Of a stretch of 64,000 bases of DNA, positions 14,801 through 59,800 are shown one piece after another. The position numbers and the translations under genes are program-made. Position 1 is the first letter of the stretch. Every line of letters starts with the position of its first letter. The notes below the pieces were generated by a model, which saw only the letters and a program-made list of their open reading frames with translations, searched no databases and was not told the origin of the DNA. Origin of the DNA: Lumbricus rubellus (lineage: Eukaryota; Annelida; Clitellata; Crassiclitellata; Lumbricidae). Where the stretch lies: contig OX243814.1 of assembly GCA_945859605.1 (NCBI GenBank), positions 44,286,005 to 44,350,004 on the forward strand, in the 5' to 3' direction.

Positions 14801-17800
14801 ATTGTATACATTTAAAAGGAGTGAGCCAATGACAGATAACAGCAGATTTTGAAATCACACATGCACAACTAAATATAATTGAAAATGCATCACTCGACAA
14901 AACTATTTTAAAACAAATTAACACCTTTTTCTTTATTTAATTACATTTTCGCTTTCAACAAGTTTCTTCACAGTAAAATGATAATTATATACAGAAAGAA
15001 ACTGAGCAATTTTTCATTTAAAAACTTCTGTGAAAAATACCCATGTCCTTAATTTCCTGCATTGCATTCTTCAAGCTCTTGCTATAAAACTTAACTATGG
15101 CCATTGTGTTTTGGCCCTCCTGCAAGAAATATCTGTGGGTGCCCATGTCTACCAGAACACAAATTCTGAAATTTTGATCATAAATTTATAATCTAATCTA
15201 ATCTAATATCATGAAATTGATAGTTTCTGCTACTCACCTGGCCGACAACATGTATGACAAGAGGTGCCTCAAAAACACCGGTGTCCTTGTCAAAGAACTG
15301 GCTAGCATCCTGGTACAACGACTTCCTAAAAAAATTACCAACATAGTGAATTTATTTTCTCAAGATTCATATTCAGGCATTTATGAGTATATTGGTACTC
15401 ATTACTCAATTAGCACAATTTTATTATCAATAAATTATTATCATTTTAATTATTATAAGTAGCAATAATTTTTATTACTAATACTACTACCATTACTACT
15501 AATACTACTACCACCACAACTACTACTACTGTGTTGAATTACCATGCACACTAGGTCACTAGGACTGCTTCCATGAATGTCTAACATTTGGAGCATTTTA
15601 TATTCCATTTAAAGCTCTACATTGTTCTAAGCATGAGTTGGGAGGGCTCCTGACTAGTCCACTTGAAGAGGTGCTAGCAAAATCTATGAATGAATTACCT
15701 AAATACTAATTAAAAGATACACCTAAAACTTTACACAAGAAATGGATGAGAACAAAGACTACGAACAAAGACTACGAACAAAGACTACGAACAAAGACTA
15801 CGAACAAAGACTACGAACAAAGACTACAAACAAAGACTACGAACAAAGACTAGAAAAAAAAGACTACGAACAAAGACTACGAACAAAGACTACGAACAAA
15901 GACTACGAACAAAGACTACGAACAAAGACTACGAACAAAGACTACGAACAAAGACTACGAACAAAGACTACGAACAAAGACTACAAACAAAGACTACGAA
16001 CAAACCTTGGCAGAAACTTCAGCTGGGCCGTGAACTGTGACTGCCCCTGGATGTAGCCAGATTTTGGGAGCAGCTCCATATGGTTGCGCAACTCCTTACA
16101 CACCTCAAATTTGAGGTTGTAGGCTGTCGAAGCTCTGTGGAAACAATGTTCTTCCATCTTTAAACATTTCCAGTTTTTGTTACAATTTACATGACATTCA
16201 GCAACAACAGCACAACCATCATCACTATTGCTACAGCAGAAATCTAAAAAAATTAATGATAGTATCTCAATTCTCATTATAACTAGAACTGGATGCTGGG
16301 TTTTTTTATAATCGTTGGCATAAGTAAAAATTAAAGTCTATGCTGGACAAACATTTTTAAACAATAATATTTCTAATGGTTTCAATAGCAGCCTAATTTC
16401 AATACAAAAGTTTATAACTATATTAAATTCCAATATGTAAGTTAATTAAAGCAACTGTTATGAATGACAATGGAGTCTTAATTAAAGCAACCTGTTATGA
16501 ATGACAATGGAGTCTTAATTAAAGTAACCTGTTGTGAATGACAATGGAGTCTTAATTAAAGCAACCTGTTATGAATGACAATGGAGTCTTAATTAAAGCA
16601 ACCTGTTATGAATGACAATGGAGTCTTAATTAAAGTAACCTGTTGTGAATGACAATGGAGTCTTAATTAAAGCAACCTGTTATGAATGACAATGGAGTCT
16701 TAATTAAAGCAACCTGTTGTGAATGACAATGGAGTCTTAATTAAAGCAACCTGTTGTGAATGACAATGGAGTCTTAATTAAAGCAACCTGTTGTGAATGA
16801 CAATGGAGTCTTAATTAAAGCAACCTGTTATGAATGACAATGGAGTCTTAATTAAAGCAACCTGTTATGAATGACAATGGAGTCTTAATTAAAGCAACCT
16901 GTTATGAATGACAATGGAGTCTTAATTAAAGTAACCTGTTGTGAATGACAATGGAGTCTTGAAAGAGTCGGTCGAACATGCAGATCTTAAGGTCGACCGT
17001 TTTTCTCTCGACCCAGACCGGAATATCAACGGCACGACCGACCGCTGTCACCAATATCTGGTGGCAGACAATAGCATCATGAACAAAAGACTTTTTTGTT
17101 TAAACACTTTCATTCTTACATATATATATAAATTATATATATATATAAATTATATATATATATTGTTTATTCAAGAACATTAAGTTGACATGCTGCAATT
17201 TATTACATGAAATAGGCAAATGAAAAGAGGACCAAACTATCTGCCTGAACTGCAAAATTCAAGGCTGCGAAAGAGTCTTTAACTGGTTTCTTTTAAAGCT
17301 AACGCTGTGAACAGTCATAAAAAATACGCAAGAGATGAAATTAAAGTCATCTTTCATGGGCAGTTCAAACTCATGCAGTCTGGAAAGCAAAGCATATATG
17401 GCCTACGAACAACACAGGCTCTAAAATTTCAATTCTCTTCTAGCAGTTGTTATTTGAGGTAATAAAGAATGAAATACCAGAAACATGACCATTCCTGTCA
17501 TCACAGCAATTGAAAATTATTTATGCTCATTGATGGAAAATGAAATATCCTTTTTGCATTTAAAATTATGCAAGCTAATTGAAACTTATTACACTTGAAA
17601 ATGATCAATGCTTACTGGAAATTAATATTCTCATTGAATATTAATAAAATTATTATTCGTAGTGAAATAGCAAAGACATACATTATTAATTATGTACTTA
17701 CATCATCAACATCAGGTGCTTGGAATGAGATAGTAAACTCTGATGAGACACGACCAGGAATTGAAGGCAGCCAAACGATCTCAAGCTTCACAGAGGAATA

Positions 17801-56800: not shown

Positions 56801-59800
56801 ATGAGTGGATGCAGAATAAAGTGAAGAAATTCTCACTTTGGTTTTAGTAGCGTTGGTCCAAACACGATTCCAAGATTTGTTGCAGACATCTGATTGACTT
56901 CGTGATTCTTAGCAACTCTAAACGAAACATAAATAAATAGTGCTTGATGAACTACGATTCTAGAAACTCTAAAACATAGCACACAATGAAAAGGCGAATT
57001 TGTGATTCATTAAAATTTAAACAATTTAAACAAAAAGATCACATAAATATTTGAAAAATGGATTACTCATCAACACCATCAAATAAAAATGAGTTTCATA
57101 TAATTATACTGATGAGAATGATGACAACGATGATGATGATTTACAACTAGTTTGTTTAAAGCAACCATCAGCTATAACAGTGGTGCAATTTGAGTATATG
57201 AAACTAGTTCCTTTTCCTGTCATTCAGAAGTCACAGATTAGCCTCAAAATCTCATGCTTACTCATCAAATACCAGAAGAAAGATGCTTCTTGAAGTGGTG
57301 CAATAAAAACAAGAAGTAAGCAATCAATAAAAACAAGAAGCGAGCAATGCTACAACCAACCTGTTTAGATGGTACATACAACCAACCTGTTTAGGTGGTA
57401 CATACAACCAACCTGTTTAGGTGGTCCACACAACCAACCTGTTTAGGTGGTACATACAACCAACCTGTTTAGGTGGTACATACAACCAACCTGTTTAGGT
57501 GGTACATAAGGATGTTGCAGGTTTTGTGGTGAGCAGGCGGCAGCTGTTCAATGAGTTGACTGAGAGATGACAAGAGCTGACCAAGACCTTGACCATGAAC
57601 TTCATCCTACACAAGTACACAAGTACACATCGTTAGGCATCAATGTAAAACATGGTCATGAATTCATCTCGACATCACGAGTGACATTTACCGTGCTGTA
57701 AGCAGTAACAAAATCTTTCATTATAACTACAGAATTTAATCATACAAATGCAATGTGTTATGATGTGTTCAGCGCATCATTAGGTATGAATATATATATA
57801 TATATAATTATATATTATATTTATATGCATATAATTGTAATAAATCAAATGAATGAACTCAGCAGAGTTGAACGAACCTTTGCGAGCTGCATGAAGTCGA
57901 GATACAGCCGATAGGTCAGCAATGGCTCTGGCAACTACAACAACCACGACATGAAATAAACGGCAAATCTCAATGCAATTAAACATAAATTTATACGCCT
58001 ATATCATCAACTTCAGCAAAACTAAAGTTACAGTGTCCAATCACTCAGCAAAGAAAGGTCAAAGAACTGATGCCGTCGTTGCAAAACAACTAAACCTAGA
58101 AGCATCTTCACACTGAAGTGGAATATTGAGCAGATTGAAGGACTCTCCAGCAAGGAATGACTGAGACAAAGGCACGCAACACATGGAGAAAATGAAAGAT
58201 GAACGCAATTAGATCTATTTTAAATGCAGCATGCTCTTGCAACTTTGTTCCTCTCATATAGAGCTAGATATATGCCAGTTGAGATTGAGAGAGAGCGAGA
58301 GAGACAGACATACAGACAGACAGACAGACGGAGAGGCAGACAGACATATACAAACATAGACAGAGACAGAAACACGCACACACTCGCAGGCACACACAGA
58401 GAGTTTTTTTTAATAGATTCAATTAACCTGACGTAGGTAGAGCTTGAGAACATTAGCAATGACGTTTGGAGGTTGGTCGCTAAGATCTTCTTCAGTGTCA
58501 AAACTATGACAGAGTTGTTCCACCCGCGATTTCACACCCGATATTCGATAAATTCCCTTTTAAAAATAACAGAAGAAAATAATTAATACTCAGTCATTTC
58601 AACAACTAACACTATCCCAAAAGTCACTCAAACTAAACTAAATGCCTGGTTCGTATTTCTCTCTGTTAAAAGGTCACTGGAATTTAAGAATGTGGCATAC
58701 TTTTAAATACTCATTTCAAGAGAGAACCTTGCATTGGCACGCTGCCTCTCTTCAAGCAAATCCCAGTGCTGCACTAAATCATCAGACATCTCAACACACT
58801 AAATTGAAATACATAACTACTCAATACTACAGTAAATTACAATACATTATTCAGCACATAAATATTTTACCAAATATCAAATTAGCAACACAGCAACTTC
58901 TCCATCTCAATCCGACAACACGTCGATACATAAGTAGACTCTTCTTTGTCAAGCGTAGACTCTGTAACCAGCTTCCCAGTAGTCTTTTCATCCTGTGTTA
59001 GCCTATGGGCCCCAAGCAAAATCTCACTATTTCTAAACTCGTATACCGCCCAGTACAAATTCTTTGAAGATAATAACAGATACTATAAAAGATAATAATT
59101 TAGATTCTTATTTACATTTCTGGCTGCAAAGACATCCTTGGTACAAGATGACTGCAACTAAAATCCCTAAAATCATCGATTAATTCTTTTACCATAATAA
59201 CATATTGTCACAGATAATAATTTACATTGTTATTCACAATTTTGGGGTTGCTAAGAAATCCTTGGCATAAGATGACAGAAAAGGGTAAGTACCTTGATAT
59301 CAAGGCCACGGCTGTCGATCTCTTGAATGCACTTGGTGATGATAAAAGGCACTTCGTGGAGGGTAGAGTCTAGTGGTAGGGACACTGCGGCTCTAACCAA
59401 GTCATGCTGGTGGTCAGTGCACGATAACCTCAGAATTTCCAGGCACTTCTTGTGGCTTGCAATGCCACACTAACCAACCAAAAAACACCAAAGAATCGAA
59501 ATTTAGACTACATGAATACATAGAATATACAAGAGAGACTGTGTAGTGTCTATCCATGAACTGAAGATTTTTTTATCAGCAATAAACATTATGCTGTGAT
59601 CGTGAAGTCCTTAAACAAGAGTGGGCACTTACCTCTGGAGCATTGGCACCTAATTTATTACTACTGCTCTTTGGACAATAACAAATTTCTTTGCATTAAA
59701 GAACTAACGATACGCAAAATGAAACTGAAAAATTTAGAAACCTCTATAATAAATACCTATGTCCTTTATTTCCTGCTTTGCACATTTCTCATGCTACTAC

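Follow-up and report, generated by a model that had tools for sequence, protein, structure and literature searches.

Minisatellites that span or abut exon-intron boundaries are known from amphioxus, where they are called mirages, as the initial annotation of the present sequence had noted; the available extracts of the source papers report them at both 5' and 3' boundaries and as not disturbing splicing (PMC3087553, PMC3902484). Comparable arrays are found in a 64-kb window of Lumbricus rubellus DNA (contig OX243814.1, positions 44,286,005 to 44,350,004; 'the window' denotes this whole stretch of 64,000 nucleotides, animal DNA of 37% GC), which carries CFAP74 and an ARHGAP45/29-type RhoGAP gene on the minus strand and DDX10 on the plus strand. 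In the introns of these three genes, expanded minisatellites lie at 5' splice sites (donors) in real excess over other intron positions.

Position of the arrays relative to splice sites

Tandem Repeats Finder (TRF) returned 59 rows for the window, from which 12 expanded minisatellites, defined by a unit of at least 10 bp and at least three copies, were retained; each of the 12 is intronic to one of the three genes, and some extend into the exon end. Dropped before this count were 8604-8643 (AT-only, 75% match) and three composites of 3-4 bp repeats (24013-24106, 33346-33409 and 58298-58346). Six of the 12 arrays span a donor or lie within 2 bp of one, against an expectation of 0.81 under a null model in which placements may extend as far as 25 bp into the exon at the donor end but not into the last 60 bases of the intron, a count that is reached by 47 of 1,000,000 placements (in a separate run, 0.74 expected and 5 of 200,000 placements). 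When the insert at 41559-41630, described below, is taken out, seven of the 12 arrays lie within 5 bp of a donor (0.90 expected; 10 of 1,000,000 placements), and when each array is held in its own intron, the counts observed at 2 bp and 5 bp are reached by 27 and 5 of 1,000,000 placements, respectively. With no TRF row dropped (all 35 merged rows with a period of at least 10), 6 of the 15 intronic arrays of three or more copies are at a donor (109 of 1,000,000 placements). Within 110 bp of a donor are 11 of the 12 arrays, or 10 of 11 in a narrower set.

At acceptors, the absence of arrays reported by the initial annotation holds, with 0 of 15 arrays of three or more copies within 2 bp, but it is not significant alone (0.87 expected, P 0.41); the AT-only, 40-bp array at 8604-8643 is 29 bp away from an acceptor. 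The same annotation had offered a tolerance filter as one possibility. In a filter of tolerance or retention, arrays would be born anywhere, those at acceptors would be purged because wrong copies come first there, and those at donors would persist, since any deletion extending beyond them would also damage the exon. With the order of copies reversed at acceptors, extra copies there would be harmful, and copies on the donor side would be harmless if the first one is used; that two-copy donor duplications were not found also fits retention. Such a filter could thus explain why few arrays are at acceptors, but not the surplus at donors relative to the rest of the intron, where arrays should be tolerated at least equally well; the count at donors is 7-8 times what uniform placement predicts. 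We regard retention as an unlikely source of the pattern.

Structure of the arrays

All seven arrays of the initial annotation were recovered, six of them with TRF starts within 8 bp of the starts given there and the seventh (41525) at 41529 once its insert is removed, and each lies at or across a 5' splice site according to the exon models and in-frame homology; five others (3695, 12903, 19885, 22292 and 43087) had been left out. The seven are numbered A1 to A7 here, and the array at 43087 is A8. In CFAP74, on the minus strand, A1 (15750-16006) has a 13-bp unit in 19.5 copies, which begins by TRF at intron base +2 of donor 16006 and contains GT but no AGGT. A2 (16442-16960) consists of 14.1 copies of a 37-bp unit, of which about 23 bp are exon end and 14 bp intron start, with the native donor at 16936 and 12 further AGGT, and A3 (18496-19138) of 11 copies of a 58-bp unit that begins CAG/GTCAGT (the slash marks the junction) at donor 19136, with nine further donors of equal score. 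In DDX10, on the plus strand, A4 (38120-38268) repeats the exon end and intron start of donor 38148 in 4.1 copies of a unit of about 36 bp (35-37), including two further AG/GT copies of higher score; A5 (41525-41929) has a 32-bp unit without AGGT, the degenerate first unit of which stands at donor 41524 and is split by a TTAA-flanked insert, so that TRF places the array start at 41631, or at 41529 (intron base +5) with the 72-bp insert 41559-41630 removed. In the RhoGAP gene, on the minus strand, A6 (56263-56518) begins at donor 56517 with a 36-bp unit in 7.2 copies and holds 12 further AGGT, and A7 (57351-57508) comprises 6.1 copies of a 26-bp unit, 16 bp of exon end and 10 bp of intron, at donor 57491, with five further donors of equal score. 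A8 (43087-43371, plus strand), with 7.1 copies of a 40-bp unit and seven AGGT within, starts 26 bp past DDX10 donor 43061; its best match to the donor scores 9, which is within background, and it is not counted as touching. Protein homology continues in frame across the junction clearly at A1, A2, A4, A5, A6 and A7, fairly at A3 and weakly at A8. The claim that every unit keeps an AG/GT donor in five of the arrays is nearly correct: 13 of 14 copies in A2 and three of four in A4 do so, and two shortened A3 units lack it.

Unit sequences are unrelated between arrays, which occur in three genes and on both strands, and the recurrent, independent origins proposed earlier are upheld. The units of A2, A4 and A7 contain about 16-25 bp of conserved coding exon and about 10-14 bp of intron, and these arrays therefore arose in place, from their own junction; those of A3 and A6 begin at the last 2-3 exon bases, and those of A1 and A5 are intronic. 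Within A2 the native exon-end type reappears at +296 and +407, as copies 9 and 12, suggesting that the real junction itself participates in exchange, and the sole exonic difference noticed among the types (CAC/CAT) is silent.

On visual inspection, some seeds appear to be bordered by direct repeats of a few bases (AGGTGA in A6, and only two bases for A2 and A7), of the sort that slippage or end joining would leave. Among the arrays away from donors, 3695-3884 is separated by 87 bp from the donor of its CFAP74 intron and has a 34-bp coding-strand unit that holds CTAAG/GTACTG, with the native donor not evidently copied, and 22292-22823 (27-bp unit, 20 copies), in CFAP74 mid-intron at 279 bp from the donor, is the only one of the 12 that lies far off and provides a natural control.

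The insert in the first A5 unit (plus strand), a 72-bp inverted repeat with TTAA on both sides, is by its form what we take to be a piggyBac-type miniature inverted-repeat transposable element (MITE). Short inverted-repeat elements with TTAA ends and CCC..GGG tips are present at 37035-37106, 41555-41634 and 52267-52349, the second of which is the one in the first A5 unit, and all three presumably have this MITE form. The occurrence of such elements in the same introns would suit an origin of the arrays from transposons or introners with a preference for AG/GT, an origin that is rejected because the units are unrelated and, in A2, A4 and A7, hold local coding sequence; it is the least credible of the explanations considered.

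Seeding and expansion

Repeats of fewer than three copies behave differently from expanded arrays. None of 13 such intronic repeats lies within 2 bp of a donor (0.57 expected), and contact with a donor is seen for 6 of 11 arrays of three or more copies versus 0 of 13 below three (Fisher P 0.003). From the test of the short repeats, 6248-6272 and 52738-52769 were additionally left out, and the array at 12903-12988 (79% match), which has 2.2, 3.2 or 5.5 copies depending on the period chosen, is counted as expanded in the main counts and as having under three copies in this comparison. Of the 67 introns, six, each with an array, have the donor segment from -10 to +15 repeated in the next 700 bp with a score of at least 13, and outside array introns no clear second donor copy was found in the first 700 bp searched; under the same repeat criterion, acceptor segments are repeated in 1 of 67 introns.

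The donors of this window thus have either a single copy or at least four, a pattern suggesting that fast growth after duplication is what is peculiar to them, and expansion at donors, as far as this small sample suggests, matters as much as seeding. The initial annotation had pointed to a recurrent process duplicating sequence at donors; the excess over other intron positions is supported, and the absence of short repeats at donors weakens the 'seeding' part of the claim. Array introns are longer than others (median 836.5 versus 554 bp, P 0.013) but cease to be so when the arrays are subtracted (479 bp).

Donor copies and splicing

Donor sites were scored with an approximate weight matrix. 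The number of further GT sites scoring at least the native donor minus 0.5 is 0 in A1, 2 in A2, 9 in A3, 2 in A4, 3 in A5, 14 in A6, 5 in A7 and 6 in A8; further copies are equal to or better than the native donor in A3, A4 and A7, about equal in A6 (some better), and in A2 two copies are of this quality. Past the native donor, the first in-frame stop lies between intron bases +8 and +28 in seven of the eight arrays. In A3 it lies at +94, and the first further donor, at +58, precedes it but shifts the frame. Given good downstream donors and stops on read-through, splicing is therefore predicted to have to rely on position to select the first copy. A published introduction, citing others, describes the nascent 5' splice site as tethered to RNA polymerase II (Pol II) (PMC12216098).

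The several donors of equal strength in A3, A4, A6 and A7, together with the stops met on read-through, could also indicate useful arrays, with redundant donors as a safeguard for weak sites, or with decoy donors that adjust splicing by way of nonsense-mediated decay. The native donors of the arrays have a mean score of 2.03 against 2.93 for the 59 others, a difference that is not significant (P 0.44), so the idea of weak donors rescued by their copies was set aside, and A1 has no good donor copy, nor do the units of A5 contain AGGT. A useful role is accordingly quite improbable, and the arrays probably have no required function.

Origin of the donor excess

The choice left is between a mutation bias tied to donors, longer retention and a lucky window. 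Most weight is given to the first: the arrays would be donor-anchored minisatellites, and their excess would be mutational and linked to transcription or splicing at the donor, a reading that we favour tentatively, at somewhat short of an even chance, and whose cause is inferred. In the proposed mechanism, slippage or end joining would first duplicate a short stretch locally, from the exon end, the intron start or both, and the duplicated unit would then expand and be homogenised by unequal exchange or conversion. The exon-proximal donor, being transcribed first, would be bound by U1 and tethered to Pol II, so that later copies would become ordinary intron and splicing would stay correct. The donor excess may be tied to transcription and splicing at this site, for example through Pol II/U1 engagement and replication conflict, and the bias would bear no less on expansion than on the initial duplication.

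Several observations weigh against a donor-tied mutation bias. The donor excess is weaker when all copy numbers are included (6 of 28; 2,386 of 1,000,000 placements); three of the 12 arrays, at 87-107 bp from the donor, and that at 22292, at 279 bp, show no evident donor copying; array donors are of unexceptional strength; and the lack of arrays at acceptors is within chance. Recurrence downstream is about equally frequent for random mid-intron segments and for donor segments (66 of 658 versus 6 of 67), presumably since the random ones often fall inside arrays; with the rates alike, the segment search alone cannot separate donors from mid-intron, which the position test does. Also unfavourable is the coding-strand GC skew, which for A1 to A8 is 0.23, -0.22, 0.14, -0.46, 0.15, 0.43, 0.20 and 0.05 and shows, over its range of -0.46 to +0.43, no excess over the intron mean of 0.108; the origin in transcription-linked R-loops offered by the initial annotation was rejected on this result. 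Finally, the evidence comes from one 64-kb window of one haplotype, the test was framed after the pattern had been noticed, and there are only 12 arrays. A post hoc test on so small a sample leaves room for chance combined with selective reading, in which the window would have been chosen because its pattern is eye-catching among many, but counts reached by 47 or 10 per 1,000,000 placements, and by 109 per 1,000,000 with no array of three or more copies dropped, speak against it, and units containing exon sequence are hard to obtain in this way. Chance, like retention, is an unlikely explanation.

A wider proposition, which is possible but on balance doubtful, extends donor-tied mutation bias to the genome: 5' splice sites in this spiralian may be genome-wide hotspots for new minisatellite expansion, tied to the machinery that holds the nascent donor at the polymerase and independent of amphioxus, with introns lengthening from the donor side and the protein left untouched by a rule that the first donor wins. 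If this were true genome-wide, an RNA-processing landmark would shape where DNA repeats arise or grow, which would tie splicing to genome instability through a mechanism of mutation, and mirages would not be a lancelet peculiarity. The arrays also offer natural tests of how the spliceosome chooses among many equal donors.

Gene models and other repeats

The three genes were identified by PDB and protein searches, CFAP74 by a PDB match (9ijj_C, E 2.9e-11) and by its best full relatives, annelid and mollusc CFAP74. Exons were modelled with a purpose-written spliced protein-to-genome aligner whose scores were averaged over 9-11 homologous proteins per gene, and two changes were made by hand in CFAP74: exons 18-19, where the aligner had taken array sequence as exon, were replaced by a single exon ending at 19136, which gives an in-frame join with which homology agrees, and an 18-nt exon at 39-56 was removed. 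CFAP74 (207-31373, minus strand) then has 38 exons and is modelled without its 5' part, DDX10 (33999-47791, plus strand) has 20 exons with the first, 19th and last boundaries unsure, and the RhoGAP gene (55624-63748, minus strand) has 12 exons and is modelled without its 3' exons and 5' part. There are 67 introns in total, with a median length of 584 bp. Weak boundaries are those of CFAP74 exons 1, 3, 29, 31 and 34 (a GC donor), DDX10 exons 1, 19 and 20, and RhoGAP exon 12. A possible GC-AG intron in CFAP74 is seen at 5912, with the donor CTGTTG/GCAAGT.

Other repeats in the window include a perfect (ACTC)60 microsatellite at 11975-12214 and three similar sequences at 2799-3119, 10561-10803 and 26105-26347, which have alike stop-to-stop translations (CMCTCYSAPSSS...) and are probably a repeat resembling short interspersed elements (SINEs).

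Comparison with known systems

Whether the arrays belong to the amphioxus lineage or form an independent case had been left open by the initial annotation. In a quickly built CFAP74 tree that includes 31 relatives, the window falls inside a set of 11 rows (annelids, molluscs, a nemertean and a flatworm) with full support in the Shimodaira-Hasegawa-like approximate likelihood ratio test (SH-aLRT 100), and the lancelets, echinoderms, hemichordates, vertebrates, tunicates and corals fall outside this set; the nearest neighbour of the window by this quick method is a long-branched flatworm. In the DDX10 tree, the window and one other protein form a long-branched pair that is unplaced, and the lineage is taken from CFAP74 alone. 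Judged by this protein sequence, the genome of the window is spiralian, not amphioxus, and the case is therefore independent of the amphioxus mirages.

Intronic tandem repeats of other kinds resemble the present arrays in part. The 38-bp repeats of TERT intron 6 and the 7-bp repeats of LHX3 intron 5 are described with effects on splicing, and those of TERT are over 1 kb away from any exon junction in the published account available, unlike the arrays here. Earthworm metallothionein minisatellites are also spiralian and intronic, but occupy intron 1 with monomers of mean length 178-181 bp, and the available portion of that report does not mention donor copying (PMC12783039). Among the matches listed in the open-licence literature, outside which most subscription journals lie, no donor-anchored minisatellites outside amphioxus were found, save for cases of intron gain.

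These cases follow the Rogers model, in which an intron arises when an exonic segment with AGGT is duplicated in tandem, and include ATP2A1, potato RdRp and 24-bp arrays in fission yeast; they share tandem AG/GT units with the present arrays (PMC4974935). Since arrays with an AG/GT in each unit are the classic substrate for such gain, as the available text of two papers has it (PMC4974935, PMC3087553), the arrays could be birth scars of new introns. In the Rogers cases, copies help to build the new intron, and under that model donor and acceptor both derive from duplicated copies, whereas the acceptors here lie outside the arrays and are unrelated to them. In the eight introns compared, the start of the downstream exon and that of the intron agree at 1-6 of 14 bases, and gain of the Rogers type is rejected because of this unlikeness; birth scars are very improbable.

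The closest likeness is to the amphioxus mirages of Adh3, the globins BflGb6 and BflGb9, TnC and PGBD5, which in the extracts available are tandem copies of exon-intron boundaries, many with AG/GT, in unrelated genes. Length polymorphism and somatic instability also count among the traits of mirages. Seven arrays here cross a donor or come within 5 bp of one, and, as in mirages, AG/GT occurs in many but not all copies, with 2 to 12 further AGGT in each of five of the seven arrays and none in A1 and A5. Apart from lineage, the arrays differ in that only donors are duplicated, where amphioxus is reported to have both boundaries duplicated, a reported property that is not clearly a defining one, and here the zero at acceptors is within chance. 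Donor enrichment is seen here by a count against a null model, and the available sections of the amphioxus papers were not noticed to contain such a count. Units differ even between arrays in this window and shared ancestry with the amphioxus mirages is not claimed; judged from their make-up, the present arrays appear to work like mirages.

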